Below, piece by piece: positions 2,616-40,354 of a stretch of DNA of 43,057 bases. Made by a program: the position numbers and the translations under genes. Under the pieces are notes generated by a model. It searched no databases. It was given only the letters and a program-made list of their open reading frames with translations, and was not told where the DNA came from. Source of the DNA: an uncultured Methylococcaceae bacterium (lineage in GTDB: Bacteria; Pseudomonadota; Gammaproteobacteria; Methylococcales; Methylomonadaceae); NCBI GenBank assembly GCA_903866825.1, contig CAIPPE010000038.1, positions 1 to 43,057 of the forward strand, given 5' to 3'. The stretch's first letter is position 1, and each line of letters opens with the position of its first letter.

Positions 2616-2894
2616 ATGAAGTTTTTTAAACGCATACTACAGGTGCTTATTTGCACTGCTGTACTCTCAGGCTGCGCCAGCTTTAAGATGTTAAATGCCC
2701 GAATGCCTTTAGATCAAAGAGTTTACATCTATAGCGGCACCCGACTTGATTGGGCTGCATTAAATGAAAATGCCGCAGCGCTAACCAAATATAAAGTAAC
2801 TCCCCCGCGTTATCCCTTAATTGATTTTCCTTTTAGTCTTTCATTCGACACCCTGTATTTACCGTTAGCCATTTGTGCAGAGGTTTTTAATTGA
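2616..2894 (+). CDS. YceK/YidQ-type lipoprotein
   Basis: A 92-residue precursor with a clear lipoprotein signal peptide: KR near the N-terminus, hydrophobic core 7-17, and lipobox LSGC with Cys20 as the lipidation site. The mature part carries VYIYSGTRLDW and PLIDFPFSLSFDTLYLP, the pattern of the YceK/YidQ (DUF1375) family of small envelope lipoproteins of unknown function. Serine and alanine follow Cys20, with no aspartate at +2, so sorting to the outer membrane is expected. Its stop codon (2892-2894) overlaps the ribosome-binding site of the next gene. Confidence 0.78.
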   Translation: MKFFKRILQVLICTAVLSGCASFKMLNARMPLDQRVYIYSGTRLDWAALNENAAALTKYKVTPPRYPLIDFPFSLSFDTLYLPLAICAEVFN

Positions 2895-2902
2895 GGAACT
2901 TG

Positions 2903-5900
2903 ATGGTAGAAAACAGCAACTTTGATTTTCTAAAGGAACATGATGCCTTATTTCTTCAGTTAGCTACCGCAGCAGAACGTGCTTTTTCAAGTGACCCTAA
3001 CACCACCTTAATTAAACTCCGGCAACTGGGAGAAGCCTTAGCTCAGGATTTAGCTGCCCGTTGTGGTATAGAATGTAACGAGAAAACCACGCAAGCGGAC
3101 TTACTCTTTAAGGTCGGTCGAGAAATCCGCCTTGACGCCAATATCCTTGAACTATTCCATACCTTACGTACCGAAGGCAATCGGGCTACTCATCAATTTA
3201 AAACCCAGCACAAAGAGGCCTTAGATGGTTTGCGACTCGCCAGAGCATTAGCTATTTGGTTTCATCAAGCCTTTGGAAAACAGGGAGCCATGTTTAAGCC
3301 GGGGGCGTTTGTTGCGCCGACTGATCCAAGCCAACAGTTACAAGCATTAACAATTCAAATAGAACAGCTTAAAGCGCAACTATCGGACGCTAACGAACAG
3401 GTAGAAAGTAATCATCAATTAATAACCTTAGTGGCCAAAGAGAAAGAGCAATTTTCCCTACTGGCTGAACAAATGGATGAAGAAGCCCGGGTGTTTGAAC
3501 AACTGGCTCAAGAACATGAACATCAACTGGTTGAAGAAAGAAAAGCCTTTGAGCTTCGGCTTAAAGCCCTACAGGCCAAGTTAGATGATCAAGAGAATCG
3601 AACCGAATTTATTAGCGCTACGGTCAATAAAGCCAGTGTCCAACTGTCTTTAAATGAAGAGCTCACCCGTATTCTGATTGATCAACAATTGATAGCCGCT
3701 GGATGGGAAGCCGATACCGAAGTGTTAACGCATAAAAACGGCGCACGTCCTGAGAAAGGTAAAAATATAGCCATTGCAGAATGGCCTACGCAAGGCAATC
3801 AGTCCGCAGATTATGTGCTATTTGCAGGCTTAACCGCCCTTGCAATTGTAGAAGCCAAACGCGAAAACATGAATGTTGCCGGTAAAATTCACCAGGCAGA
3901 ACGTTATTCACGAGGGTTTAAACAAGCAGAAGGCTTTTTACCCAGTTGGCAAACAAGGCCGCACTATTGCTTGGGCAGATGCTGAAGAGGGACATTATCA
4001 AGTTCCGTTTGTGTATTCCTGTAATGGTCGGCCTTATGTTAAACAACTTGCTGAACAATCGGGCACCTGGTTTCGTGATGTCAGAGAAGCCGCTAACCTT
4101 GCCAAACCACTCCATGATTTTCATAGCCCCGAAGGTTTGCTGGATAAATTAAAACGCAGTCAAGTAGAGGCCCAGCAGAAACTGCAAGACGAAGGTTTTG
4201 CTTATCTTAAATTACGTGACTATCAACAAAAAGCCATTACTGCCGTAGAAGCGGCTTTAGCCCAGAATCAAACCAACTGTCTTTTGGCGATGGCGACCGG
4301 TACCGGTAAAACCCGTACCATTATCGGTTTGATGTATCGCTTCTTAAAAGCTGAACACTTTAAACGTATCCTGTTTTTAGTCGATCGTACAGCGTTGGGT
4401 GAGCAAGCCATCGACTTTTTTAATGATGCGCCGCTAGAGAATAATCTAACGCTCTCGAAAATATACAATATTGCCGAGTTGGGTGATATGGCCGCTGAAG
4501 CAGAAACCCGTATTCAAGTCGCTACTGTTCAGGCGATGGTTAAACGTATTTTTCAATCCGATAATCCCCCGAATATTGATGCCTATGACTGCATTATCAT
4601 AGATGAAGCGCATCGGGGTTATACGCTGGATCAAGAAATGACCGAAGGCGAATTAACCCTAAGAGATGTGTCTCAGTATTTATCCTGTTATCGTCGGGTA
4701 CTGGATTATTTTGATGCTGTTAAAATTGGTTTAACGGCCACCCCCGCTAAACATACCACCGAGATTTTCGGTAAACCGGTCTTTACTTACAGCTACCGAG
4801 AAGCCGTGGCCGATGATTGGTTAATTGACCATGAACCGCCGATTCGATATGAAACCTTACTGACCCAAAAAGGTATTCATTTTGAAAAAGGGGAGAAAGT
4901 CAGTGTTATTGATACGAAAACCGGCGCCATAGAACTGGCAGAGTTGGAGGATGAACTTGATTTTGAAGTAGAAGCCTTTAACCGTCGCGTCATTACCGAA
5001 AGTTTTAACGAAGTGATTTGTGAGCAACTGGCTAAAGAATTAGACCCCTTTGGATTAGAGAAAACCCTGATATTCTGTGCCACGGATTTACATGCCGACA
5101 TGGTTAAGCGCTTATTGGATAAAGCGTTTAAAGCCCTTTATGACGATGAATATAACGAAGCCGCTGTGCGTAAAATAACCAGCCAAAGCGACAAGGTTAA
5201 ACAACTCATTCGGCAATACAAAAATGAAAAGTATCCCTCGATTGCCATCACCGTTGATTTACTCAGTACCGGGATTGATGTGCCGCCGATATGTCATATT
5301 GTGCTATTACGTCGGGTTCGTTCGCGTATTTTGTATGAACAGATACTGGGACGTGGTACACGTCGCTGTGATCAAATTGGTAAGACTGTCTTTAAAATAT
5401 ATGACCCTGTGGATATTTATGCGGCACTGCAAGACGTGAGCGCAATGAAGCCCTTGGTTAAAGATCCTAATATTACCCTGGAACAATTGCTACAAGAATT
5501 AGTCGATCCGAATAGTCATGCGGCGGTAGGTAATAAACCCAATACCAGTCATGCCCATGATGTCTTGGATGTGGTGAGTCAAAAAGTGATGCGTATCTTG
5601 CGTAAGGCGGATAAAAAAGCCGAGCAAAAGCCAGAACTCAAACATAAACTCCAGGAACTGCAATCACTGTGGGGGATTGAGCCTAAAAAACTACCTCAGC
5701 ATTTGCATCAGTTAGGCCCGCAACAAGCCGCTCAATTTGTGCAGACGCATAGCCATTTACTCAGGCAATTAGCGGAAGTGAATGCGTTATTGGGTTCAGA
5801 TACAAACCCCTTAATTTATGAAGGGACTGATGAATTTAAAAGCCGTACCCAAACCTATGGCGTCAATGAAAAGCCCGCTGATTATTTAGACAGCTTTAAC

Positions 5901-6374
5901 CATTTTATCCGCAATCAGATTAACCAGTCGGTCGCCTTGAGTGTCATTATCAATAACCCCAAAGATCTGACCCGCGAACAACTTAAAGAAGTGCGTTTGT
6001 TACTGGATGCACACGGCTACAGTGAAGCTAAATTAAAAACAGCCTGGCGTAATCAAACCCATCAGGAGATTGCCGCCAGTATCGTTGGCTACATTCGTCA
6101 GGCCGCCTTAGGAGAAGCGTTGTTGCCCTTTGAACAGCGGGTTAATAACGCCATGCAAAAAATCTATACCCTGCATGATTGGTCAAACGTACAACGTAAA
6201 TGGCTGGATCGGCTCGCCAAACAACTTATTCTGGAAGTGGTGATTGATCAAGAATTTGTTAATCGTGCTTTTGAGAAAGATGGCGGTGCTAAGCGTTTAA
6301 ACACCTTACTTGACGGTGATCTGGATAAGGTGCTGGAAGCACTTAATGAGAATCTCTGGCAAGCGATGGGTTAA
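2903..6374 (+). pseudogene. hsdR: Type I restriction endonuclease subunit HsdR, split by a frameshift
   Basis: The two frames together encode one EcoEI-like HsdR, the DNA-translocating nuclease of a type I system. Start ATG 2903 follows AGGA at 2894-2897. Frame one gives a DUF4145-like N-terminus (about 10-110), a coiled coil (about 145-225) and the HSDR_N nuclease core with D in SADYVLF and EAK in AIVEAKREN. It goes out of frame near 3940-3955 and stops at 3983-3985. Frame two, one base later, resumes with TIAWADAEEGHYQVPFVYS and carries MATGTGKTRT (Walker A), IIIDEAHRG, GLTATPAKHT, LLSTGIDVPP and QILGRGTRR, then an EcoEI-type C-terminal domain to 6374. The flanking residues join into a normal HsdR sequence once one base is removed, so this is a single-base insertion: a real inactivating mutation or a sequencing/assembly error. 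T5 at 3934-3938 is a candidate slip site. hsdM and hsdS follow intact. Confidence 0.88.
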
Positions 6375-6408
6375 ACTACTTCTCTTTTTCTGCTAATAAT
6401 ACCGATTA

Positions 6409-8022
6409 ATGAACAACAACGATATCGTACAAAAACTCTGGAATCTCTGTGACGTATTGCGTGACGACGGCATTAACTACAGTGATTATGTGACTGAGTT
6501 GGTGTTATTGTTATTCATTAAAATGGAGTATGAAAATACCGAAGCCGGATTATTAGAGAAGCATAAACTCCCGGAAGGTTGCCGCTGGCCGGATTTGAAT
6601 AGCAAAAGTGGCTTATCCCTATTGACCGAATACAAGCGTATTCTGTTTACCCTTTCAACGGGTAAAGAAATCAGCAAAGACCCTAATGATGCTGATAAAA
6701 CCATTGAAAAACTCGTTATCACTGACCCGTTAATATTAGCCATATACGCCGATGCGCAAACCCGCTTACGGGAACCCCGTCATTTAGAACAACTGATTAA
6801 ATCCTTAGACTGTATCGACTGGTTTAGTGCCAGACGCGATGGCCTGGGGGATTTATACGAAGGCTTATTAGAAAAGAATGCCAGTGAAACCAAATCAGGC
6901 GCAGGCCAATACTTTACGCCACGGCCTTTAATCGACAGCATTATCCGGTGCATAAAACCGCAAGCCGGCGAAGTAATCCAGGACCCCGCTGCCGGAACAG
7001 CCGGTTTTTTGATTGCTGCCGATGCCTATATTAAAGGTCAAACCGATGATCTTTATGATCTTAACGAGCAAGCCCAAAATTTTCAACGTAATAAAGCCTT
7101 TGTGGGTATGGAACTGGTGCCGGGTACGCGCCGTTTAGCCCTGATGAATTGTTTGTTACACGGCATGGAAGGTGATGATGAAGGCGTGGTGCATTTAGGC
7201 AATACCTTAGGTTTACCGGGTACGCAACTGTCAGCCGCTGATGTTATTTTGACTAATCCGCCGTTTGGTACCGCCAAAGGGGGCGGTGGCCCTACGCGCG
7301 ATGACTTTACTTATAAAACCAGTAATAAACAACTGGCTTTCTTACAGCATATTTACCGTAGCCTTAAACCTGCCGGTCGTGCGGCGGTGGTGTTGCCTGA
7401 CAATGTATTATTTGAAGCCGGAGTGGGTACGGATATTCGCCGGGATTTAATGCACAAATGTAATTTGCATACCATCCTTAGATTACCGACCGGTATCTTT
7501 TATGCCCAAGGTGTTAAAACCAATGTGCTGTTTTTTACGAAAGGCACGGCAGAGAATCCACTGCAAGATGAGCATTGTACCGAACAAGTCTGGGTCTATG
7601 ATTTGCGTACCAATATGCCCAGTTTCGGTAAACGCACCCCATTTAGTGATCAGTATTTAAAACCGTTTGAAGATTGTTTTCATGCGTCAGAGCGTCAAGA
7701 AGCCCAGGGGAACATTGACGCAGTTGATGAGAGTGCAACCGATGTTGAGTTACAAACGCGCTGGCGGTGTTTCTCTCGGGATTGGATTAGCACGCAGAAA
7801 GGGGATTCTTTAGATATTGCCTGGCTAAAAGATCAAGACAGTGTAGATGCCGCGAGTTTACCAGAACCGGATGTATTGGCAGCGGAAGCCATGAGTAAAT
7901 TAACTGAAGCTTTGAGGGAGTTGAATGAATTAATGCAGGCTTTGGGGGCAGGGGATCAGGCACAAGTGCAGACTGAATTGTTGGCTGAGGTGTTGGGCTT
8001 GGGGGCGGGGAGTTTGGAATGA
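6409..8022 (+). CDS. hsdM: Type I DNA methyltransferase subunit HsdM
   Basis: N6-adenine methyltransferase and core of the type I complex; it needs HsdS for sequence recognition. The 537 residues start with the usual HsdM N-terminal helical domain (VQKLWNLCDVLRDDGINY). They contain the SAM-binding motif DPAAGTAGF (near residue 193), AGQYFTPRPLI just before it, and the catalytic N-P-P-F motif VILTNPPFG (near 283). No residue needed for activity seems to be missing. The gene starts 34 bp after hsdR without a strong Shine-Dalgarno sequence. It ends at 8020-8022, followed by a hairpin region before hsdS. Confidence 0.95.
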   Translation: MNNNDIVQKLWNLCDVLRDDGINYSDYVTELVLLLFIKMEYENTEAGLLEKHKLPEGCRWPDLNSKSGLSLLTEYKRILFTLSTGKEISKDPNDADKTIEKLVITDPLILAIYADAQTRLREPRHLEQLIKSLDCIDWFSARRDGLGDLYEGLLEKNASETKSGAGQYFTPRPLIDSIIRCIKPQAGEVIQDPAAGTAGFLIAADAYIKGQTDDLYDLNEQAQNFQRNKAFVGMELVPGTRRLALMNCLLHGMEGDDEGVVHLGNTLGLPGTQLSAADVILTNPPFGTAKGGGGPTRDDFTYKTSNKQLAFLQHIYRSLKPAGRAAVVLPDNVLFEAGVGTDIRRDLMHKCNLHTILRLPTGIFYAQGVKTNVLFFTKGTAENPLQDEHCTEQVWVYDLRTNMPSFGKRTPFSDQYLKPFEDCFHASERQEAQGNIDAVDESATDVELQTRWRCFSRDWISTQKGDSLDIAWLKDQDSVDAASLPEPDVLAAEAMSKLTEALRELNELMQALGAGDQAQVQTELLAEVLGLGAGSLE

Positions 8023-8051
8023 GCCACATTCATCAAGCACTCTTTGATACA

Positions 8052-8135
8052 ATGCACACCAACAGACCCGCCAAGCCTATGAGAACTTGTGTTCTTATGC
8101 TCAAATCGTGCGGGTTTTTTATGTCTGGGATTTAG
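8052..8135 (+). other. hsdM-hsdS spacer: nested hairpin with T-run and a 27-residue reading frame
   Basis: ACCCGC (8065-8070) pairs with GCGGGT followed by six T (about 8110-8120). Nested inside is ATGAGAAC-TTGT-GTTCTTAT, an 8-bp stem with a 4-base loop. The shape resembles a rho-independent terminator between hsdM and hsdS. The same DNA is an open frame of 27 codons from ATG 8052 to TAG 8133-8135 (MHTNRPAKPMRTCVLM...). That peptide faintly recalls small Ash-like prophage peptides; I am not sure of this. Either reading would affect how much hsdS is made relative to hsdM. Confidence 0.4.
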
Positions 8136-8142
8136 TGGGCTA

Positions 8143-9639
8143 ATGATTATGAATGAATCAATAAAGCTCTCTAATGAAGAAGTACAACAAGTTCAGGAGC
8201 AAATCTCAAATTACTTAGAGGACAGTGGGGTATCGGAGCACTCTACACTAGTTCAATCCACGAGGCTAACGGCACCTTGGCTTAACGTAAAATTCAATTA
8301 TGTCATCTCAAGTGTTACAAATGGTATAGGCGGTAAACAAACTAAAGATGGTATTGGAATACCAGTAACAAGAATAGAAACCATTGCAAATCAAACTATT
8401 GATTTCGATAAAGTGGGGTTTATAGCAGACTACGATATTTCTAAAATTGATAGATATTTATTGAATCAGGGTGATATTTTATTTAGCCATATTAATAGTC
8501 CTCTCCACTTAGGTAAAACAGCTATTTTTAGAGAGAACAAACCTCTTTATCATGGCATTAACCTTTTAAGAATTGTTACTAAAGCTAATGTAATGAGTCC
8601 TTATTACTTTAATTATCATTGCAAATTATTAAGGTCTCAAAGTGAGTTTTCGATGCAGGCTCAACATGCTGTGAATCAATCATCTTTGAACCAAAAAAAA
8701 CTTGGTGAATTTGAAATTCCATTACCGCCACTCGCAGAACAACAACAAATTGCTGCTAAGTTGGATGAGCTATTGGCACAGGTCTATAACCTTAAAACTC
8801 GTCTCGACAATATCCCAAAAATCCTCAAACACTTCCGTCAATCAGTCCTCGCCGCTGCGGTTAGTGGGAAGTTGACTGATGATTGGAGAAAAGATAACCA
8901 GATCAACGAGTGGTGCTTTACTCAATTAAGTGATTTAAATATTGATATACAAATAGGCCCTTTTGGAACCCTTCTTCATAAAAGTGATTATGTTGAAGGT
9001 GGTATTCCATTGGTAAATCCTATGCATATTAATGATGGCAAAATTATTCCATCGACATTTATGACTGTTGCGTCGGTCAAGGCAGCAGAACTTCAAAGGT
9101 ACAATCTTCAAATTGGAGATATTGTTTTAGGTCGCCGTGGCGAAATGGGCAGAGCCGCTGTTGTAAATATAGATGGTTTGATTTGTGGTACAGGATCACT
9201 TTATTTACGTCCAAATTTAAGTGAATTTGAGCCCATTTTTATTTGGTTAGTTTTATCAGCCTCAGAAACAATCAAATATCTCGAAGACAATTCAGTCGGC
9301 ACTACAATGGTTAATCTAAATCAGAAAATCCTAAAAGCTTTGCCATTTCCAGATGTTGAGAAGAAAGAACAAACCGAAATCGTCACCCGCGTCGAACAAT
9401 TATTCGCTTACGCTGATCAAATCGAGCAACGTGTTAAAGATGCACAATCTCGCGTTAACCAATTAACCCAAGCTATCCTGGCCAAAGCCTTTCGAGGTGA
9501 ACTCACCGCCGACTGGCGTACTCAAAACCCTGAACTCATCAGCGGTGAAAACAGCGCAGAAGCGCTATTAGCCAGAATCAAAGCCGAACGTGAACAAACA
9601 CAAGTCGTAAAAAAAGCTAAAGCCACTCCAAGCAACTAA
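8143..9639 (+). CDS. hsdS: Type I restriction-modification specificity subunit HsdS
   Basis: HsdS recognises the bipartite target and bridges the HsdM subunits. I chose ATG 8143 (8149 is equally possible) over the GTG at 8089 because the earlier start lies inside the spacer hairpin. Two target-recognition domains are each followed by a conserved helical segment: IPLPPLAEQQQIAAKLDEL then VLAAAVSGKLTDDWR in the middle, and QTEIVTRVEQLF then AILAKAFRGELTADWR at the end. The repeated SGKLTDDWR/RGELTADWR pair marks the internal pseudo-symmetry of the family. Length is about 498 residues. The C-terminal tail is lysine/alanine rich. With hsdM intact it should allow methylation even though hsdR is broken. 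Confidence 0.93.
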   Translation: MIMNESIKLSNEEVQQVQEQISNYLEDSGVSEHSTLVQSTRLTAPWLNVKFNYVISSVTNGIGGKQTKDGIGIPVTRIETIANQTIDFDKVGFIADYDISKIDRYLLNQGDILFSHINSPLHLGKTAIFRENKPLYHGINLLRIVTKANVMSPYYFNYHCKLLRSQSEFSMQAQHAVNQSSLNQKKLGEFEIPLPPLAEQQQIAAKLDELLAQVYNLKTRLDNIPKILKHFRQSVLAAAVSGKLTDDWRKDNQINEWCFTQLSDLNIDIQIGPFGTLLHKSDYVEGGIPLVNPMHINDGKIIPSTFMTVASVKAAELQRYNLQIGDIVLGRRGEMGRAAVVNIDGLICGTGSLYLRPNLSEFEPIFIWLVLSASETIKYLEDNSVGTTMVNLNQKILKALPFPDVEKKEQTEIVTRVEQLFAYADQIEQRVKDAQSRVNQLTQAILAKAFRGELTADWRTQNPELISGENSAEALLARIKAEREQTQVVKKAKATPSN

Positions 9640-9672
9640 ATCTGAATGTAGTCATTATAAAGGTAGCGAGTC

Positions 9673-9871
9673 ATGCAAGCAGAATATGATCTTTCTCAAA
9701 TGAACCCCCGGAAAAACCCTTATGCCTCAAAACTGAAAAAATCAGTGACTATCCGTTTAGGTGAGGATGTGGTTGGGTTATTTTAAAGACATGGCAGAAG
9801 GTACGGGTGTACCTTATCAAAGCCATCGAAAAATTGATATTTCTTGGCAGTCAACCACAAAGACGGTTTAA
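9673..9871 (+). pseudogene. Broken BrnA-type antitoxin gene
   Basis: The frame from ATG 9673 (MQAEYDLSQMNPRKNPYASK, then KSVTIRLGEDV) is the standard opening of a BrnA/CopG-like antitoxin. It stops at 9784-9786 after an extra G in GGG 9775-9777. Shifting one base restores GYFKDMAEGTGVPYQ, then a jump to SHRKIDISWQS, so about ten codons (the helix expected between PYQ and SHRK) are also missing. The two lesions mean it is dead. The first 97 bases recur at 11797 with about 13 differences. No cognate toxin lies next to it on the same strand. Confidence 0.75.
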
Positions 9872-9956
9872 GGTTATAGATTATTTGCTGGATGGCTTGC
9901 TTGAGTATTCAAAAGAACTCGGTTTTACACCACAAGAAGTTTTAACTTTAGATTAA
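9807..9956 (+). other. Possible 49-codon ORF overlapping the brnA remnant
   Basis: A frame open from GTG 9807 to TAA 9954-9956 would end ...FKVIDYLLDGLLEYSKELGF then TPQEVLTLD. The second half looks protein-like (amphipathic helices). The first part overlaps the dead brnA frame and is probably not original, so this may be the 3' remnant of another gene. I do not recognise it. From 9957 to 10112 I see no gene. Confidence 0.25.
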
Positions 9957-10112
9957 ATATATCTCTACCGTGTTGGTGGTCTATGTAGCCACGCCGCTAC
10001 AGAAGAAATCTTGATCCTCAGTCTATACTGGGCAGTCCTAGGCGAGAGCAACGGCTAATACAGGTCAATAGTGTTGTCTATTTGCGAATTACTATCACAG
10101 AATTAACAACAC

Positions 10113-10361
10113 TCAATTAGCTTGTGTTGCTTTGTTTACAGATGATTGTTCGAGGCGCTCAGCTAACCAGATTTTTATAATAGATTGACGAGTTACACCG
10201 ACTCTATTAGCTTCTTTATCCAAAGACTCAATCATCCAAGTAGGGAAGTCCACATTGACTCTTTTTTGGCCTTGTAAGACTCTTTTGGCCTGAGATAAAT
10301 CCAATGTATCTAAAATAGATTCACCGTCATCAAATTTATTTTCAAATTCATTCGCTTTCAT
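10113..10361 (-). CDS. brnA: BrnA-like ribbon-helix-helix antitoxin
   Basis: An 82-residue protein starting at the ATG whose C is at 10359-10361, overlapping the end of brnT by 14 bp, which implies translational coupling. The core KRVNVDFPTWMIESLDKEA followed by NRVGVTRQSIIKIWLAERLE is a ribbon-helix-helix DNA-binding fold (a beta strand VNVDFP, then two helices). It should neutralise the BrnT toxin and repress the operon. It lacks the usual C-terminal BrnA sequence seen in the degraded copies at 9673 and 11797, so it belongs to a different subgroup. A longer frame up to 10436 lies inside brnT and is rejected as the start. Confidence 0.8.
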   Translation of the reverse strand: MKANEFENKFDDGESILDTLDLSQAKRVLQGQKRVNVDFPTWMIESLDKEANRVGVTRQSIIKIWLAERLEQSSVNKATQAN

Positions 10362-10614
10362 AAATATGCACTTCTTCTTGTCGAGATCGTCGCACTGAAA
10401 TAATCCTAATGTTTTCATCTCGGTATGTAATAACACCAGACCAATATTTATTGTTAATCCTGCCTATAATCACAGATCGAGGTTCATCGATTGTTTTTGC
10501 AGGTATTTCTAATAAATAAGGATCATTCCAAAGCTGTTGAGCATCAATAAAATCGATCCCATGTTTCGCCAAGTTAGCTTGGCTTTTATTTTGATCAAAC
10601 TCAAATATAATCAT
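10348..10614 (-). CDS. brnT: BrnT family ribonuclease toxin
   Basis: An 88-residue toxin of the BrnT (COG2929) family, RelE-like ribonucleases that inhibit translation. Typical features: MIIFEFDQNKSQANLAKHGI at the start, FIDAQQLWND, EPRSVIIGRI with the following YWSGVITYR, and the basic C-terminal IRIISVRRSRQEE. All the usual conserved R/H positions seem to be present. It is the first gene of a two-gene minus-strand operon with brnA. No Shine-Dalgarno sequence precedes the start; a perfect palindrome overlaps the start codon, so the message may be leaderless or very short-leadered. Confidence 0.9.
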   Translation of the reverse strand: MIIFEFDQNKSQANLAKHGIDFIDAQQLWNDPYLLEIPAKTIDEPRSVIIGRINNKYWSGVITYRDENIRIISVRRSRQEEVHIYESE

Positions 10615-11796: not shown

Positions 11797-11976
11797 ATGA
11801 AAGCGGAATATGATATTTCTCAAATGAAATCCCGAAAAACTCCTTATGACTCCAAACTAAAAAGTTCAGTGACTATCCGTTTAGGTGAGGATGCAGGTGG
11901 CTTAAGTGACGATTTCCCAGATGATATTAACGATGATGACTTGGGTGTCGATGTGCCTCGTGAGTCACTTGATTAA
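11797..11976 (+). CDS. Chimeric BrnA-like small ORF coupled to fic
   Basis: 59 codons from ATG 11797 to TAA 11974-11976. The first 33 residues (MKAEYDISQMKSRKTPYDSK, then SSVTIRLGEDA) are the N-terminal half of a BrnA-type antitoxin and match the copy at 9673. The rest, SDDFPDDINDDDLGVDVPRE with SLD after it, is strongly acidic and unlike BrnA. The stop shares its last A with the fic start (TAATG), so the two are translationally coupled. It may be a leftover antitoxin that gained a new tail, or a small regulator of the Fic protein. It lacks the second helix needed for a complete ribbon-helix-helix. Confidence 0.5.
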   Translation: MKAEYDISQMKSRKTPYDSKLKSSVTIRLGEDAGGLSDDFPDDINDDDLGVDVPRESLD

Positions 11977-12941
11977 TGAGCTATCATCCCCCTTACACCA
12001 TCACCCCCAAAATACTGCAACAAGTTGCCGATAGTGTTGAGTTATTAACGCGGTGGCAGATTTCCAGTCAAGCGTCTTTAACTCCTCAGTTAAGGCGTAA
12101 TAACCGTATTCGTACTATTCAGGCTTCATTAGCGATTGAAAACAATAGTCTCAATATTGATCAAGTCACCGCAGTATTAGACGGTAAACGGGTATTGGGA
12201 TTGCCCAGAGAAATTCAAGAAGTGCGTAATGCGTTTGCCGCGTATGAACAATTACCGCATTGGAAAGCAGAGTTAGAAGCTGATTGTTTAACGGCGCATG
12301 GTTTATTAATGGCTGGCTTGGTTGATCAGGCAGGCTGTTATCGTAGCAGCGGTGTCGGTATTTACAATAATCAAACCTTAGTTCATGCAGCCCCACCCGC
12401 CAGTCGGGTTTCTGCGTTAATGGCAGATTTACTGACTTGGCTGGCACCAGAATCAGTACATCCTTTAATAGCCAGTTGTGTGTTTCATTATGAGTTTGAG
12501 TTTATTCATCCGTTTGCTGATGGTAACGGTCGCATGGGGCGGTTATGGCAAACGTTAATATTAAGCCAGTGGCAACCCCTGTTAGCTTATTTGCCGGTTG
12601 AATCTATTATCAGAGATCGGCAAACAGATTATTATAAAGCGCTGTCTGATGCGGATATTCTAGCCAATTCGACACCGTTTATTGAATTCATGTTGCAAGC
12701 ATTGCTTGATGCACTGATAGAAGTCTTGGCGAAAACGTCGGAGAAAGTGTCGGTAAAAACGTCGGAGAAAATCCTGGTATTGGTTCAAGGTAATCCGTTA
12801 ATAACGATTGCCGAATTAGCCCGATCAATTGGTGTAACAGAGCGCTCTATTGAGCGTAACTTAAAAAAACTTCAAGCTGAACAGCGTGTGATCAGGAATG
12901 GACCAGCCAAAGGTGGGCATTGGGAAATGATTAAAGATTAA
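11976..12941 (+). CDS. Fic family AMP-transferase with C-terminal winged helix
   Basis: A 321-residue Fic protein. Fic enzymes transfer AMP (or a related group) to hydroxyls of target proteins. The catalytic loop HPFADGNGRMGR (about 176-187) is complete, with the His, Asn and Arg residues. An N-terminal inhibitory helix is visible as SLAIEN (S-x-x-x-E-N, about residue 51), the class II arrangement in which the Glu blocks ATP. Before the Fic core lies the Fic_N-like region (VLDGKRVLGLPREIQEVRNA). The C-terminal 60 residues (LVQGNPLITIAELARSIGVT, then ERSIERNLKKLQAEQR) are a winged helix, so it probably also binds DNA. A linker repeats KTSEK twice. It is the last gene of the island and is coupled to the 59-codon ORF. 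Confidence 0.92.
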   Translation: MSYHPPYTITPKILQQVADSVELLTRWQISSQASLTPQLRRNNRIRTIQASLAIENNSLNIDQVTAVLDGKRVLGLPREIQEVRNAFAAYEQLPHWKAELEADCLTAHGLLMAGLVDQAGCYRSSGVGIYNNQTLVHAAPPASRVSALMADLLTWLAPESVHPLIASCVFHYEFEFIHPFADGNGRMGRLWQTLILSQWQPLLAYLPVESIIRDRQTDYYKALSDADILANSTPFIEFMLQALLDALIEVLAKTSEKVSVKTSEKILVLVQGNPLITIAELARSIGVTERSIERNLKKLQAEQRVIRNGPAKGGHWEMIKD

Positions 12942-16952: not shown

Positions 16953-17819
16953 TTATAATCTGGATAGAAGCTCTGCTTTCTTTGATGAAAACTCATTATC
17001 TGTTAAGAAGCCTTTATCTTTAAGGGACGCCAGTTTCTCAATCGCTTCGAAAATATCAGAAACTTGACTGGCATCTGGACTATAAAATGGTGTTTCTGGA
17101 ATAAAGGGCGCAGCCGATTGTGATTGAACTGCAGGATGTACTGGCACGTTATCAACAGAAATCAGCGGTAAGGTGTTAATGTCTATGAGACCATATTGGC
17201 TGGTAAAGGTAACCGAGCTTCCGCCGGATTGTTGCTGCGAAAAGCCACTAATCTGATGGTCTAACGTGTCATAAAGGGATACATGTCCATTAACATCAAT
17301 TGCCAGTCTTTGAATGCTCGCAAAGTAGGCATAGCGCATATTATTTTGTGCGCCAGAGCTAGTTGGAAATTGCAGACCTGCAGGCCACCAGTTTCCTGAA
17401 CTACCGGCGGGGGGGGGTACAAACAAACTCACTGGGCTGCTGGGTCCAAAGTTATTTTGTTGCTGACTATTGCCTGTAAAATGATCGTTATGGTGGCTTT
17501 GTTGCTGAGTGCCCTGGTTTTGAGACTGAAAGCTGCCTGTTTGAATTAAGCCGGGTTGATTGGCAATTAAGTTGGATAGTTCCTGGCACAGATTACCTAC
17601 GGTATTCTTTAAGCCATTATTGAACATATCGCCTAACATGATCATGCCGCCGCGCATCCATTGACCTGAGCCACCAAATTCCGGGTGACTAAACTGGGCC
17701 ATTGAGCCATTGCCATTAATGACTGATTGCAACATGCTGAAGACAGCATCCGAACTAAAATTATAACGTTGAGCAATATTGTTGATTATTTGCTGGCCTT
17801 CCGGCGTAAGTTGTTTCAT
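16953..17819 (-). CDS. SHOCT-domain protein
   Basis: 288 residues, soluble. The N-terminus (LTPEGQQIINNIAQRYNFSS then AVFSMLQSVINGNGSMAQF) and HPEFGGSGQWMRGGMIMLGD form a conserved block I associate with a proteobacterial SHOCT family. Residues about 95-165 are a low-complexity Q/N/S/H linker. A beta-rich middle (YAYFASIQRLAIDVNGHVSL) follows. The last 32 residues (IFEAIEKLASLKDKGFLTDN, EFSSKKAELLSRL) are a clear SHOCT motif, a short helical oligomerisation element. Function unknown. It has no obvious Shine-Dalgarno sequence and stands alone. Confidence 0.85.
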   Translation of the reverse strand: MKQLTPEGQQIINNIAQRYNFSSDAVFSMLQSVINGNGSMAQFSHPEFGGSGQWMRGGMIMLGDMFNNGLKNTVGNLCQELSNLIANQPGLIQTGSFQSQNQGTQQQSHHNDHFTGNSQQQNNFGPSSPVSLFVPPPAGSSGNWWPAGLQFPTSSGAQNNMRYAYFASIQRLAIDVNGHVSLYDTLDHQISGFSQQQSGGSSVTFTSQYGLIDINTLPLISVDNVPVHPAVQSQSAAPFIPETPFYSPDASQVSDIFEAIEKLASLKDKGFLTDNEFSSKKAELLSRL

Positions 17820-18306: not shown

Positions 18307-21300
18307 ATGAAATTGAATGATTCCAGCGACAAACTTGATACTTACTACCAACAAGTTCAAGACATCATACTAAAGAGGCAGGACTGGGTTACTGGCTTGC
18401 TCCCTGCCAGTACTGCCGTTAATGTTCATGGTAATTATACCGATGCCTGGGTTCGAGATAATGTCTATAGCATTCTTGCCGCTTGGGGGCTGGCTCTGGC
18501 CTATCGGCGTGTAGAAGATAAGCAGGGTCGGACTTACGTCCTGGAGCAAAGTGTTGTTAAATTAATGCGTGGCCTATTAACAGCCATGATGCGGCAAGCA
18601 CCCAAGGTTGAAAAGTTTAAGCAATCCCAGAATCCGATGGATGCGTTACACGCTAAATATGATACAAAGTCGGGTGGAGTCGTTGTCGGTGACAGCGAAT
18701 GGGGGCATCTGCAACTGGATGCAACTTCCCTGTTTTTATTGATGCTGGCTCAGATGACGGCATCAGGGTTACGCATCGTTTTTACCATCGACGAAGTTAA
18801 CTTTGTACAAAATCTGGTGCACTATATCAGCCGTACTTACCGTACGCCGGATTATGGTATTTGGGAGCGTGGCAATAAAATTAATCACGGGATTGCTGAA
18901 CTCAATGCCAGTTCAATTGGTATGGCTAAAGCGGCACTGGAAGCTTTGTCTGGATTTAATTTATTTGGTAAAGACGGTGGACAAGCCTCTGTTGTGCATG
19001 TCATCAGTGATGACATTGCGCGTACGCGTATTACCCTGGAATCACTACTGCCCAGAGAATCAATTTCTAAAGAAGTAGACTCGGCCGTTTTGAGTATTAC
19101 TGGCTTTCCTGCTTTTGCCATAGATAATCAAACCATAAGAGCTAAAACAGAAGCACTTATTTGTGAAAAGCTAGAAGGGCGTTATGGATGTAAACGGTTT
19201 TTATTAGATGGTCATCAAACCGTCATAGAGGATAGTAAACGCTTGCACTATGATCCGCATGAACTTAAACAGTTTATGCATATTGAATGCGAGTGGCCTT
19301 TGTTTTTTACTTATTTATTGCTTAATAATTTATGCGCGGACAATACCGAAGCCGCTTTGGATTATCGCAAAAAGCTGGAAGGCTTGTTAGTTGAACAAAA
19401 TGGACAGCTATTATTACCTGAACTGTATATTGTTCCAAAAGAGTTGATTGCTGCAGAAAAAGCCAATCCACATAGTCAGGAGCGGGTGCCTAATGAAAAC
19501 GTGCCATTGGTCTGGGCGCAAAGTTTGTATATATTGGGTTGTCTCATTCAGGATGACCTATTAACCTGTGATGACATTGATCCTTTGGATCGCCATAAAC
19601 AAGTTAAAAAGAAGCAGGAGTATCATTTACAAATTCAGATATTGGCTCAGGATGAAGCGGTTCAGGCCCGATTGCTTGAACATGGAATTTCTGCACAAAC
19701 CCTGGTCGAGATTGCGCCTATTCAAATTAGAGAAGCCAATGAATTAGCACAGGCTTACACCCATGTCGGTAGAAATGACCGGATTGGTTTAACAGGAAGG
19801 CCTTTACGGCAATTACGTACCTTAGCAACATCAAAGCTCTATACCTTGGCGGGTGAGCCCTTATTATTCCTGCCGCAATGCCTTAATCAAAAGGGATTCT
19901 ATCTGGCCTTGGATAACCGTTTACTGATTAAGAGACTCCGGGTTGAGTTATCTTATATCTATAAGCATTGGGACAGGCAAGGCAATCCACTGGTCGCCAT
20001 GACGATTAAACAGAATATGCTGGATAGTCGTCACAGCGATAATCTGATTGAATTTATCAATGAGTTAAAACAGGGGGAAACTAAAGGGATTCCTGTCCAA
20101 CTTGGAACCTTGTTAGAGTTTGCTGAGACATCCAGCTATGAAAAGATCAATTATTTGCATGACTTTCAGTTTTCACAAGCTTCATGGGAGGACGTTGAGC
20201 GGCCATTTTCTCAAGTACTACCTTTTGTTGCAGAAGCTTCACACCCATTAGAGTCGGTTTTGTTGAATGAATGGGAGGTTGCGACTGATGATGTTTTACT
20301 TGAACATTTAAAATCCAGCGTGAATTTGTATGCTCAACTGGAAGTATTAACCCTGTTGAGTGGGAGGCATGGTTTAAGCTATTCAACGGGTTTAGTTAAT
20401 GCAGAAGGGCTAGTGGCTAGTGTAGGGGATTTACTGGATGAGTTGTACGAACGCGCCGGGGATCAGCATGTCTGGGCAATTGTCAGACGGTGTGCAGGGT
20501 TGTTAGGCAAGTATGATATTAATCTTGAACAAGCGGCTACAGAAATATTGGTCAGGCAACATGCTTTGACCTTAGGCAGGGCTTATAGTGGTAAAGCCAC
20601 TTTATTGCGTCCTGCTGACTCTTCAGAAATTCTTCAGATTATCCGAACTTATAATAATACGGATACCAGCGAGCATATTATTATTCAGGAATTGATTCTT
20701 TATTTGGGAATGCTTATTAAATCAAATCCGGAATTGTTTACGGATATGCACACGATTCGAGTGGGCCATATTCTGCAATTAATTATTGTCAGGCAGAAAC
20801 GTGAATCGGGTAATGACTCATTGGATCAGGCATTTAATAGGGTTTTTTCCTTATCTCCTTCACTATTGTCGAGAAGGTTAAGGGAAACACTTGAAGACTA
20901 TAGTAATACAGAGGAACAATTAGATCGGGTCGAAACTCTACATTATGAGGGTGAGTGTCGTAAATTAGGCAGCGCTCGTTTCTCTAAAACGATTGATCCT
21001 AAAGATCGTGAAGGTAGTATTGACTGGTATGACTGGCGCGAACAACAAGGCAGTGTGGGTAGAGAGAGCAATGCTTTTTATGGCTCTGTCTGGGATATCC
21101 TGCATCATTGCAAAGGCTTGATGATGGGCGGTAAACTAAGCAGCAAAAATCGTCTGGATAGTGAAAACATACTGTCACAAATGACCAAGGGTGAGCAGAG
21201 TTTTAAGCTCCAAGTGAGTCATTTACTGAATAAGATTCAATCTCCAGTCTATCGACAACTCACTGCTGAAGCGTTAAAGGCATTAGCCTCTATTTTTAGA

Positions 21301-21513
21301 GATAATGCCCAGTTACACATTGATGATATTCTGTTAACCGATATTATAATTGGTCATGCTGTCAGGATTAGTTGGTTGCAAGCCCATCCTGAAAATACAG
21401 AAAACTATGAAGCTTATACGGCATTAGCCTGGCAAGATTTTTATAGGTTACCGCCCCATAGTGTGGCTAATGGTATTCTGGATGCATTAATACATCTACT
21501 AGACAATAATTAA
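18307..21513 (+). CDS. Phosphorylase kinase alpha/beta-like GH15-fold protein
   Basis: A 1068-residue protein that matches the regulatory alpha/beta subunits of animal phosphorylase kinase nearly end to end. Examples: DAWVRDNVYSILAAWGLALA (about 46-65), LEQSVVKLMRGLLTAMMRQ, VVGDSEWGHLQLDATSLFLL (126-145), LAQMTASGL, DYGIWERGNKINHGIAELNA (182-201), IECEWPLFFTYLLL (326-339), WAQSLYILGCL, GRPLRQL and, in the C-terminal domain, ILHHCKGLMMGG. The N-terminal half is an (alpha/alpha)6 glycoside hydrolase 15 fold; E187 in GIWERG and E329 in ECEW sit where catalytic acids would be expected. No signal peptide, so cytoplasmic. No kinase catalytic subunit is nearby. glk follows 11 bp later, suggesting a role in glucan or glycogen breakdown, either as a hydrolase or as a regulator. 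The C-terminal CaaX of the animal protein is absent. Confidence 0.88.
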   Translation: MKLNDSSDKLDTYYQQVQDIILKRQDWVTGLLPASTAVNVHGNYTDAWVRDNVYSILAAWGLALAYRRVEDKQGRTYVLEQSVVKLMRGLLTAMMRQAPKVEKFKQSQNPMDALHAKYDTKSGGVVVGDSEWGHLQLDATSLFLLMLAQMTASGLRIVFTIDEVNFVQNLVHYISRTYRTPDYGIWERGNKINHGIAELNASSIGMAKAALEALSGFNLFGKDGGQASVVHVISDDIARTRITLESLLPRESISKEVDSAVLSITGFPAFAIDNQTIRAKTEALICEKLEGRYGCKRFLLDGHQTVIEDSKRLHYDPHELKQFMHIECEWPLFFTYLLLNNLCADNTEAALDYRKKLEGLLVEQNGQLLLPELYIVPKELIAAEKANPHSQERVPNENVPLVWAQSLYILGCLIQDDLLTCDDIDPLDRHKQVKKKQEYHLQIQILAQDEAVQARLLEHGISAQTLVEIAPIQIREANELAQAYTHVGRNDRIGLTGRPLRQLRTLATSKLYTLAGEPLLFLPQCLNQKGFYLALDNRLLIKRLRVELSYIYKHWDRQGNPLVAMTIKQNMLDSRHSDNLIEFINELKQGETKGIPVQLGTLLEFAETSSYEKINYLHDFQFSQASWEDVERPFSQVLPFVAEASHPLESVLLNEWEVATDDVLLEHLKSSVNLYAQLEVLTLLSGRHGLSYSTGLVNAEGLVASVGDLLDELYERAGDQHVWAIVRRCAGLLGKYDINLEQAATEILVRQHALTLGRAYSGKATLLRPADSSEILQIIRTYNNTDTSEHIIIQELILYLGMLIKSNPELFTDMHTIRVGHILQLIIVRQKRESGNDSLDQAFNRVFSLSPSLLSRRLRETLEDYSNTEEQLDRVETLHYEGECRKLGSARFSKTIDPKDREGSIDWYDWREQQGSVGRESNAFYGSVWDILHHCKGLMMGGKLSSKNRLDSENILSQMTKGEQSFKLQVSHLLNKIQSPVYRQLTAEALKALASIFRDNAQLHIDDILLTDIIIGHAVRISWLQAHPENTENYEAYTALAWQDFYRLPPHSVANGILDALIHLLDNN

Positions 21514-21524
21514 AGGAGAAGACA

Positions 21525-22496
21525 GTGATTTTAGCGGGCGACATTGGTGGAACAAAAACCGTTTTATCGCTTTTGACAAAGGATGCTGGAGGTTTATTGA
21601 GCCGTTTGCAGGAACAATCATACCCCAGCCAACAATATTCTACGTTTGATGAGATTTTGAATGATTTCTTATCTGAAGACCAAGTGATTGAATCTGCGTG
21701 TTTTGGAATTGCTGGCCCAGTGGTCAATCAACGCTGCCAGACCACTAACCTGCCTTGGTTATTGGATGGAAACGACCTAAAAGCAAGGTTGAATACTAGC
21801 AAAGTAAAGCTCCTGAATGATTTAGAAGCGATGGCTGTGGGTATGAAATACTTACCTGAAGAAGATCTTGTGGAATTAAACCCAAAAGCGATACCACAAA
21901 CAGGTAATGTTGCGGTGATTGCAGCAGGGACGGGTTTAGGAGAAGCTATTTTATTTTGGGATGGTTCTGCTCATCATCCATTAGCGACAGAGGGTGGTCA
22001 TACCGATTTTGCTCCTCAAAATGAATTACAGGATCAGTTACTAAAATATCTTAGAAAGAAAACGCCTGAACACGTTAGTTATGAGCGTATTTTGGCAGGT
22101 GTTGGGTTTAGCAATTTGTATGATTTTTTGTGTGAAGAGGGGCTGGCTTCTCCTTGTACTGAAGTGACCGAATTAACAATCGATCAAGATAGAAATGCTG
22201 TTATTTCCCGGTTAGGTGTGACAGGTGAAGACCCTTGTTGTGTTCAGGTCTTAAGACTCTTTGTGGAAATATACGCTGCAGAAGCCGGTAATCTGGCTTT
22301 AAAGTCTTTAGCTACAGGAGGGGTTTATATCGGTGGTGGTATTGGGCCTAAAATATTACCTGCTCTCCAGGAAGGCGGTTTTATCGCCGCTTTTAAAGCA
22401 AAGGGGCGATTTTTACCTTTATTAGATACCTTGTCTGTCAAATTGTCATTAAATCCACGCACTCCTCTAATTGGAGCAATTAACTACTTTTTATAA
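21525..22496 (+). CDS. glk: Glucokinase
   Basis: ATP-dependent phosphorylation of glucose to glucose 6-phosphate in the cytoplasm. The 323 residues match the Glk (non-ROK) family: LAGDIGGTKTVL (ATP-binding phosphate-1 loop, 3-14), CFGIAGPVVNQRCQTTNLPW, LLNDLEAMAVGM, IAAGTGLGEAIL (glycine-rich) and TEGGHTDFAP, with the substrate-binding E-G-G-H. The C-terminal GGVYIGGGIGPKIL is the second nucleotide-binding loop. Starts with GTG 21525 preceded by AAGGAGA. It is directly behind the GH15-like gene, very probably in one operon, and may use glucose released by that enzyme. Confidence 0.94.
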   Translation: MILAGDIGGTKTVLSLLTKDAGGLLSRLQEQSYPSQQYSTFDEILNDFLSEDQVIESACFGIAGPVVNQRCQTTNLPWLLDGNDLKARLNTSKVKLLNDLEAMAVGMKYLPEEDLVELNPKAIPQTGNVAVIAAGTGLGEAILFWDGSAHHPLATEGGHTDFAPQNELQDQLLKYLRKKTPEHVSYERILAGVGFSNLYDFLCEEGLASPCTEVTELTIDQDRNAVISRLGVTGEDPCCVQVLRLFVEIYAAEAGNLALKSLATGGVYIGGGIGPKILPALQEGGFIAAFKAKGRFLPLLDTLSVKLSLNPRTPLIGAINYFL

Positions 22497-36547: not shown

Positions 36548-37432
36548 ATGACCTCCTCTGTGTTGATAGAGCAGTTTCTTGATGCGGTTTGGGTGGAGCA
36601 AGGTTTAAGTGAGAATACCTTGTCTGCTTACAGCAGTGATTTACGAATTTTTGCCAAATGGCTTGTAGATCGATCAATGCTTGACGTAACAACAGCCGAT
36701 TTATCAGCATTTTTAGCTAGTCGATATAAAGAAGGGATAGGGAATCGTTCTACCGCTAGAATTTTATCGAGTCTACGGCGCTTTTATGGTTATTATATTC
36801 GCGAGAATCGTATTACAGTTGATCCAACTGGTTTGATAGAGCCTCCGCATATAGGGAGGTCATTACCCACTTCTTTGTCTGAACATGATGTCGAGTTATT
36901 GTTAAACTCTCCAGAAGTGACTAACTTGCAGGGATGCAGAGATAAAGCGATGTTTGAAATGCTTTATGCTACTGGACTTAGAGTGTCTGAGCTGGTGGCT
37001 TTAAAATTTGATCAAATCAGTATAAGACAAGGCGTTGTAAGAATAGTGGGTAAAGGTAATAAAGAGCGTTTAGTGCCTGTAGGTGAAGATGCGATGAGTT
37101 GTTTAGAAGCTTATATGGAACATGCCAGACCGGCTTTAATGGGGCAGCAGCAATCGGATTATTTGTTTGTAACCAATCGTGCTGATGGCATGACTCGTCA
37201 GGCTTTTTGGCATATTATCAAGCGTCATGCAACCAAAGCAGGCATTAATAAGGAAATATCACCTCATACCTTACGTCATGCTTTTGCTACCCATTTGTTA
37301 AATCATGGCGCTGATTTGAGGGTTGTGCAGTTATTGTTAGGACACTCCGACTTATCAACCACGCAAATATACACGCATATCGCTAGTCAACGTTTAAAAG
37401 AGTTACATTCAAAATTTCATCCCCGAGGATAG
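36548..37432 (+). CDS. xerD: Site-specific tyrosine recombinase XerD
   Basis: With XerC it resolves chromosome dimers at dif. 294 residues. N-terminal SAM-like core-binding domain (FLDAVWVEQGLSENTLSAYS, 10-29) and catalytic domain with R in YATGLRVSELVAL, K in VGKGNKERLVP, H-x-x-R in HTLRHAFATHLLNHGADLR, and H...Y in LLGHSDLSTTQIYTHI. Length and the SPHTLRHAFATHL run favour XerD over XerC. It starts one base after the ogt-type stop codon. Confidence 0.95.
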   Translation: MTSSVLIEQFLDAVWVEQGLSENTLSAYSSDLRIFAKWLVDRSMLDVTTADLSAFLASRYKEGIGNRSTARILSSLRRFYGYYIRENRITVDPTGLIEPPHIGRSLPTSLSEHDVELLLNSPEVTNLQGCRDKAMFEMLYATGLRVSELVALKFDQISIRQGVVRIVGKGNKERLVPVGEDAMSCLEAYMEHARPALMGQQQSDYLFVTNRADGMTRQAFWHIIKRHATKAGINKEISPHTLRHAFATHLLNHGADLRVVQLLLGHSDLSTTQIYTHIASQRLKELHSKFHPRG

Positions 37433-39139: not shown

Positions 39140-40354
39140 ATGGCCGAAAAATTCAATTTCACTCAACAAAGAATCGAAAAGTTACCTACACCTGAAAAGG
39201 ACAGAAAAGATTATTATGATACTGATAATAAAAAATTAATCTGCCGGGTGAGTGCAAGTGGTAACAAAACATTTTGCGTATTAAAGCGCACGTCGGACGG
39301 AAAGCTTCAACGGGTTACTTTGGGCAAGTGTAAAGAAATGACCGTTGATGCAGCGCGAAAAAAAGCAACATTGGCATTAACTGATTTAGACAATGGTATT
39401 AATCCCGCTGAAAAAAAGCGTGTTGAGAAAATTAAAAAGATTACCTTGTCGGAATTAATGACTCAGTACATAGAGCAAAAAGGTTTGAAACTAAAGGAAG
39501 GTACTGCGACCGATTATCGAAAAAAACTAGGTGAGGGATTTTCTGACTGGTTGGACAAGCCTGTTAATGCAATCACTCGTGAGATGGTGGCGAAGCGGCA
39601 CAAGACACTACCCGGCAATAGTACCTCCAAAGATAACAAGATGCGGGTATTACGGCTGTTAATGAGGTCAGCATTAGCATTAAAAATAATCACCGAAAAC
39701 CCTTGTGATGTTCTTAAAAAATCTGAGTTGGATTTGTGGAGCAAGCCCACGCGCAAAAATCGCATTATTCCAGCTGATAGTTTAAAAGAGTGGTATGAAG
39801 CTGTTTTGGAGTTGACTAACCCCAAGGCAAAAACCTATTTGTTACTATTACTCTATACCGGACTAAGGGCTAATGAAGCCTTACATTTGGAATGGAAAAA
39901 CGTAGATTTTAAAAATGACACGGTCACAGTGATGGAGACAAAAAATCACAGTAACTTTACCACCTACATTCCTACACAATTAAAGCCCTATTTGAGAAGC
40001 TTGCAAGAATTGACAGGAGGTAATAATTTTGTGTTTCCGGGTGATAATGCTGAAAGTGCGATGGCAATACCCCGCTGGCCACTAGATCAGATTACCTTAA
40101 AAACGGGTATTGAATTTAGCAGTCATGATTTAAGGCGTACATTCGCCACGATTGCTGAAGCTTCATTATTACCTGAAACAATCATTAAGCGTTTACTGAA
40201 TCACACCACGGATAATTGTGTTACTGGTGGATATATTTGCACCGAATCAAATACCATGAAACAAGCTATTGATCGTATTGCCGGGTTTATTCAAGACCAT
40301 GTATCACCTGACATTGAAAATCTTGTTAACATCAATAAATCAGCTACCCACTAA
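39140..40354 (+). CDS. int: Tyrosine integrase of the integrative element
   Basis: 404 residues. N-terminal DUF4102-like arm-binding domain (about 1-90: FNFTQQRIEKLPTPEKDRKD, KLICRVSASGNKTFCVLKR, GKCKEMTVDAARKKA), a core-binding SAM-like domain (about 100-190) and the catalytic domain with R in YTGLRANEALHLEW, H-D-L-R in SSHDLRRTFATIA, H in RLLNHTT and Tyr in VTGGYICTES. All active residues are present, so it should be functional. Reads away from the tRNA fragment, and its stop overlaps the ribosome-binding site of the antitoxin gene. Confidence 0.95.
   Translation: MAEKFNFTQQRIEKLPTPEKDRKDYYDTDNKKLICRVSASGNKTFCVLKRTSDGKLQRVTLGKCKEMTVDAARKKATLALTDLDNGINPAEKKRVEKIKKITLSELMTQYIEQKGLKLKEGTATDYRKKLGEGFSDWLDKPVNAITREMVAKRHKTLPGNSTSKDNKMRVLRLLMRSALALKIITENPCDVLKKSELDLWSKPTRKNRIIPADSLKEWYEAVLELTNPKAKTYLLLLLYTGLRANEALHLEWKNVDFKNDTVTVMETKNHSNFTTYIPTQLKPYLRSLQELTGGNNFVFPGDNAESAMAIPRWPLDQITLKTGIEFSSHDLRRTFATIAEASLLPETIIKRLLNHTTDNCVTGGYICTESNTMKQAIDRIAGFIQDHVSPDIENLVNINKSATH

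Follow-up and report, generated by a model that had tools for sequence, protein, structure and literature searches.

The gene pair and its surroundings

The window analysed here is the whole 43,057-nucleotide stretch of contig CAIPPE010000038.1 (contig C38 of the source genome), taken from assembly GCA_903866825.1 of an uncultured Methylococcaceae bacterium, a genome of 4.28 Mb in 345 contigs. It carries a gene for a full-length homologue of the alpha and beta subunits of phosphorylase kinase (PhK), followed by the glucokinase gene glk. The PhK-like protein is probably a cytosolic alpha-glucosidase of the GH15 type with a PhK-type C-terminal body, and it would feed glucose to Glk. The features of the gene pair are the following:

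18307..21513, + strand: PhK alpha/beta-like open reading frame (ORF) of 1068 amino acids, from GH15-like D1 through KPBB_C (Pfam and PDB sequence matches)
18307..19596, + strand: D1, GH15-like (alpha/alpha)6 domain, residues about 1-430
20818..21507, + strand: KPBB_C domain (PF19292, E = 1e-91)
21513..21518, + strand: AAGGAG, likely ribosome-binding site of glk, recognised by eye
21525..22496, + strand: glk, glucokinase of 323 amino acids with a GTG start (PF02685, E = 1.6e-99; TIGR00749 above cut-off)

The stop codon of the PhK-like gene and the start of glk are separated by 11 nt, the distance already given in a first-pass annotation of this DNA, and the two genes probably share a message. 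The glucokinase matches PF02685 over its full length (residues 3-320). A scan for promoter and terminator consensus sequences returned fewer matches than in shuffled sequence and was uninformative.

Homology and domain architecture

The PhK-like protein matches PF00723 over residues 9-820 (E = 2.1e-79) and KPBB_C over residues 838-1067, so that the similarity covers both the GH15-like and the C-terminal domains, as the first-pass annotation had claimed. A phmmer search of PDB sequences at E up to 1 returned only human PHKA1 (E = 1.2e-221) and PHKB (E = 1.3e-175). GH15-like D1 is followed by KPBB_C in a single chain, and the structure prediction that the first-pass annotation had proposed gives a chain fold like that of PhK alpha and a D1 fold, an (alpha/alpha)6 barrel, like that of GH15 glucosidases. 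Over D1-D2, identity to human alpha is 48.9% (620 columns) and to human beta 39.3% (611 columns); human alpha itself shares 42.5% with beta and 53.0% with the cyanobacterial protein of locus L161, which places it closer in sequence to the window and cyanobacterial proteins than to the subunit it pairs with. The C-terminal CaaX farnesylation motif is absent, the chain ending in LIHLLDNN.

The family is broad and already modelled by Pfam. Bacterial orthologues are also catalogued, since a gut-microbiome gene table contains the KEGG orthologue K07190, 'Phosphorylase kinase alpha/beta subunit' (PMC12296014). Among the papers listed in searches of the open-access literature, none was a study of a bacterial PhK alpha/beta homologue.

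Predicted catalytic pocket

The pocket was read from a bacterial alignment of 121 rows, among which 107 sequences are distinct; one of these (L117) stops short of the N-terminal pocket residues. The positions concerned are:

18436..18438, + strand: Tyr44, alpha1-alpha2 loop, predicted to assist the general base (Tyr in all 106 bacterial sequences covering the position)
18448..18459, + strand: W48-V-R50-D51, predicted subsite -1 (conservation, spacing and loop)
18700..18702, + strand: Trp132, alpha3-alpha4 loop of the model, possible equivalent of a glucoamylase subsite +2/+3 Trp (loop compared with PMC12446779)
18865..18867, + strand: Glu187, predicted general acid, aligned with human alpha Glu185
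19291..19293, + strand: Glu329, conserved, not the general base; aligned with human alpha Glu327 and not Glu371
19420..19422, + strand: Glu372, predicted general base, aligned with human alpha Glu371 (Lys in human beta)

E187, E372 and W132 are invariant in all 107 distinct sequences, and H41, G42, Y44, W48, R50 and D51 in the 106 that reach them. By alignment, and by the helix count of the predicted model, the two Glu lie in the alpha5-alpha6 and alpha11-alpha12 loops, as in GH15; spacing and loop likewise place Y44, W48, R50 and D51 as the Tyr, Trp, Arg and Asp of subsite -1. These four residues and W132 presumably also correspond to residues of the Aspergillus niger glucoamylase, a resemblance on which the assignment does not depend. 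Y44 stands seven residues ahead of D51, the spacing of Tyr326-Asp333 and Tyr337-Asp344 in GH15 enzymes. In that family the Tyr of the alpha1-alpha2 loop is reported to hydrogen-bond the general base (Tyr326 in AgGD, Tyr337 in TtGA and Tyr48 in KfIG; PMC12446779). In the 2024 cryo-EM work on human PhK, the catalytic residues of D1alpha are named as Glu185 and Glu371 (PMC10978961). The predicted pair of the bacterial protein is, by alignment, E187 as acid and E372 as base; the first-pass annotation, which had named E187 and E329, was right about the former and chose the wrong residue for the latter.

The human subunits depart from this pocket to different degrees. Human alpha keeps the equivalents of W48, R50 and E372, and carries a deletion around HGxY together with the changes H303Y, Q304K, N396M, N398K and A404G; H303, Q304, N396 and N398 are all invariant in bacteria. 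Human beta has Lys at the position of W48, Gln at that of R50 and Lys at that of E372. At the position of Tyr44 there is Gln in alpha and Asp in beta. Of the D1-D2 positions conserved to at least 98% in bacteria (n = 169), alpha retains 148 and beta 120. It is possible that human alpha lost catalysis through the changes in the Tyr44 loop and in the NxN and HQ motifs, as judged from one eukaryotic alpha sequence; a shifted Tyr might still serve there, because Gln occupies the Tyr44 spacing and the nearest Tyr lies two residues further off.

Subunit contacts

In human PhK, the helices alpha Asp68-Arg94 and beta Arg110-Arg131 are described as forming a pseudo-twofold D1-D1 contact, and D5beta as pairing with itself (PMC10978961). 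The contact helices correspond to residues 70-96 and 75-96 of the window protein. Within residues 70-105, 11 of 36 positions are invariant in bacteria, a share no higher than that of D1 overall (138 of 430), and a bacterial homodimer is a guess by analogy with the human complex. Human alpha Tyr593 and Lys588 are reported to hold the gamma subunit (PMC10978961). Neither is conserved in the window protein, which has E591 and E586 instead, and at the Tyr593 position bacterial sequences vary.

Gene neighbourhood

A same-strand glk lies downstream of the PhK-like gene in 31 of 33 fetched loci of the family, the exceptions being L059 and L076. A wider scan of genome contigs confirmed at least 587 relatives, of which the best 80 were kept as loci; the PhK-like ORF is cut by a contig end in four of them, leaving 76 usable. 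Same-strand glk is present in 50 of these 76, in 44 cases with the two genes -17 to +47 nt apart. The two sets are not independent, as 14 identical proteins are common to both. Two of the 50 glk-linked loci carry titles that name no methanotroph, namely L141 (Gammaproteobacteria bacterium Milos-ODIII6) and L162 (Thiomicrorhabdus). Beyond the family, glgB and glgX adjoin the PhK-like gene in three of seven divergent relatives, in the order glgB-glgX-malQ-phk in L067 and phk-glgB-glgX in L069 and L070. No glg cluster was seen at L065, L066, L068 or L071, where the neighbours scanned amounted to one each at L065 and L068 and none at L066 and L071.

Some neighbouring genes are worth recording in their own right. 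Eight cyanobacterial loci (L144, L145, L146, L148, L152, L156, L158 and L161) share one upstream gene family on the opposite strand, whose L148 copy is a WecG/TagA/CpsF glycosyltransferase. At L108, a 404-amino-acid ORF (9249-10460 of that locus) with no Pfam match at E 1e-5 begins 2 nt behind the PhK-like gene, in the place expected for glk.

Distribution and phylogeny

PhK-like proteins are not rare, and many cyanobacteria also carry them. KPBB_C was found in 139 of 237 genomes of the family (138 above cut-off), in 8 of 398 genomes of a phylum sample that includes the source genome, and, for the phylum to which the Calothrix locus L151 belongs, in 29 of 117 genomes, that of L151 included (28 above cut-off). 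Among 14 control genomes there was one match, in Synechococcus elongatus. The nearest named relatives, among the matches listed, belong to Methylococcaceae/Methylobacter. None of 45 pattern matches in viral contigs was confirmed as a relative.

In the trees, eukaryotes are represented by one human alpha and one human beta sequence. When five divergent sequences are left out, the two human subunits (support 74) lie outside the methanotrophs and group with cyanobacteria and L065/L066 with support 98 (97 with alpha alone), this group being set apart by successive splits with support 97-100. When the divergent sequences are included, the human pair joins the long-branch L067 with a bootstrap of 29, an unstable placement. 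A recent gift from a eukaryote is not supported, human alpha and beta not being nested among the methanotrophs in the tree without divergent sequences.

Kinase, phosphorylase and glycogen genes in carrier genomes

The first-pass annotation had noted the lack of a kinase subunit and of glycogen phosphorylase. This holds for the window contig, which has no PF00069 and no PF00343 match. It does not extend to the genome: elsewhere there are three glycogen phosphorylase genes and two Pkinase matches, one of them partial, so the absence is an effect of the window. The source genome also has two GT5 glycogen synthase matches, one on contig C288.

The Pkinase search used PF00069 at E up to 0.001, with other kinase families outside its reach; genomes free of matches were partly taken as the complement of the listed matches, and the totals agree (28, 37). 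No PF00069 match was found in 37 of the 237 family genomes, of which 24 carry KPBB_C (G074 and G082 by a partial domain only). Thirteen of these 24 are rated at least 96% complete, and one carrier, G116, is a single contig rated 99% complete. A PF00069 kinase is therefore not required in these carriers. Moreover, Pkinase is no commoner in carriers (115 of 139) than in non-carriers (85 of 98; p = 0.47). All five genomes checked from loci L130, L141, L151, L155 and L162 have Pkinase matches. The presence of glk does differ, at 134 of 139 carriers against 75 of 98 non-carriers (p = 6e-6, uncorrected for kinship), and GT5 glycogen synthase co-occurs weakly, being present in 134 of 139 carriers and 88 of 98 non-carriers (p = 0.056). 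Genome G171 (locus L074), rated 99% complete, has kept the PhK-like gene and glk and has no GT5 match.

Proposed function and alternative explanations

In the proposed mechanism, E187 would act as acid and E372 as base in the D1 pocket, Y44 would support the base, and W48-x-R50-D51 would bind the terminal glucose. Single glucose units would probably be cut from the non-reducing ends of maltodextrin, glycogen or isomalto-oligosaccharides, and Glk would phosphorylate the freed glucose. D2-D5 probably serve self-assembly or tuning, because in human PhK subunit contacts are made by D5beta and by the corresponding helices of D1. The first-pass annotation had already suggested a hydrolytic role feeding Glk, and called it ancestral. 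The first part fits the invariant pocket, the GH15 fold, glk in nearly all fetched family loci and glgB/glgX beside the gene in distant relatives, the activity itself being a prediction; the word 'ancestral' goes beyond the trees, which leave the root unfixed, so that the direction of change cannot be polarised.

Several observations weigh against hydrolysis. Human D1alpha is reported to be inactive on maltose, isomaltose and glycogen despite having the same two Glu (PMC10978961). The Gln that follows the base in the inverting enzymes AgGD, TtGA and KfIG (PMC12446779) is missing, its place being taken by Leu373 in the window protein and by Leu or Val in 107 of 107 bacterial sequences; according to the same source, dextran dextrinase likewise lacks it. 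The pocket loops have a pLDDT (predicted local distance difference test score) below 50 in both structure models. Searches of the PDB with profiles A2 and A3 (E up to 0.1 and 10, respectively) recovered no GH15 enzyme and, bar one unrelated match at E = 0.8, only PhK, so the link to GH15 is made by fold, motifs and PF00723. No glk was found in the available stretch of 26 of the 76 usable loci (20 cyanobacterial ones and L098, L108, L115, L130, L143 and L155). Four of the 26, namely L144, L159, L160 and L130, break off 61-738 nt downstream, which is too early for a verdict; the cyanobacterial set contains three stretches that end within 300 nt downstream of the PhK-like gene. Five of the 139 carriers, G171 included, have no GT5 glycogen synthase match. 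Finally, free glucose is attributed to MalQ action on maltodextrins, the PhK-like protein not being invoked (PMC8062543).

The main rival is a pseudo-enzyme acting as a glucan or glucose sensor, whose pocket would bind glucan uncut and whose PhK body would regulate Glk or glycogen enzymes by contact. The inactivity of human alpha with both acids in place speaks for it, as do the reported binding of acarbose to PhK with a rise in kinase activity (PMC10978961), the tight linkage to glk and the retention of KPBB_C together with the GH15 domain. On the other hand, the Y44 loop, H303, Q304, N396 and N398 are invariant in bacteria and lost in human alpha, which fits selection beyond binding, and the same pocket is found in relatives without a nearby glk; a sensor is considered rather unlikely, although it deserves more weight than any other alternative. 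A transglucosylase, such as dextran dextrinase, or a trehalase with the same pocket is a good deal less probable still. The mechanism of a GH15 protein is stated not to be deducible from sequence alone (PMC12446779), and there is a weak NCBIfam match to the archaeal trehalase TreH1; nonetheless, this match scores 25.5 bits, far under the cut-off of 820, and the Pro-Glu dyad is that of the inverting AgGD and KfIG rather than the Gly-Glu of the retaining cluster (PMC12446779). A role like that in animals, regulating a Ser/Thr protein kinase that acts on glycogen phosphorylase, would agree with the homology to PhK alpha/beta, with the Pkinase and phosphorylase genes of the source genome and with the presence of Pkinase in most carriers. 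However, the carriers without a PF00069 match, the similar frequency of Pkinase in non-carriers, the unconserved gamma contacts and the missing CaaX all stand against it. It was set aside as the leading explanation because such PF00069-free carriers exist, and appears very improbable.

Evolutionary reading and significance

A tentative extension, which we hold to be somewhat doubtful, is that the bacterial protein is a living ancestor-like form of PhK: an active glucan hydrolase working independently of any kinase, its D4-D5 body having been reused later on to hold one. Eukaryotic alpha would then have lost catalysis through the Tyr44 loop and the NxN/HQ motifs while keeping the acids, and beta would also have lost the base and the Trp and Arg of subsite -1. 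The significance of the glucoamylase-like domains of PhK is said to need further investigation (PMC10978961). The question becomes testable with a bacterial protein that has this body, a fuller pocket and a glucokinase as neighbour, and that does not require a PF00069 kinase. Should this protein hydrolyse glucans, the regulator of the kinase would be a retired enzyme, and the motifs that human alpha has lost would mark where catalysis broke. The protein is, in addition, a candidate further source of free glucose in the glycogen turnover of methanotrophs.

Other features of the window

A Type I restriction-modification locus with HsdR-, HsdM- and HsdS-like genes occupies positions 2891-9639. 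Its HsdR-like frame looks split: a 364-amino-acid ORF with DUF4145 (2891-3985) overlaps one of 833 amino acids (3873-6374), which matches only positions 326-1121 of the 1123 of the model. A Fic-domain protein with a C-terminal winged helix is encoded nearby (11976-12941). Upstream of the PhK-like gene and pointing away from it (16953-17819, - strand) lies the gene of a 288-amino-acid protein, Gln/Ser-rich by eye, with a C-terminal SHOCT domain. Of two tyrosine-recombinase genes, the one at 36548-37432 is, at a guess, an ordinary Xer-type gene, and that at 39140-40354 has an integrase-like Arm-DNA-binding domain, so that a mobile element may start there.

Comparison with known systems

Among the PDB sequences matched, human PHKA1 (PDB 8jfk/8z5r) is the closest. 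It has 1223 amino acids, a CaaX motif and the gamma contacts Tyr593/Lys588, whereas the window protein has 1068 and neither of these features; conversely, the HGxY loop and the NxN and HQ motifs are present in the bacterial protein and missing from human alpha. PHKB shares the whole architecture at 39% identity. The GH15-KPBB_C proteins of cyanobacteria and other gammaproteobacteria are likewise full length, with 50-54% identity (members of alignment A2 outside the methanotrophs); unlike in the window, none of the 20 cyanobacterial loci showed glk adjoining the gene, three of them ending too early to tell. The isomaltose glucohydrolase KfIG (5Z3A) and a bacterial glucoamylase (1LF6) are only 13-16% identical to the window protein. 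KfIG has the Gln after the base that the window protein lacks, and the window protein has the additional domains D2-D5.

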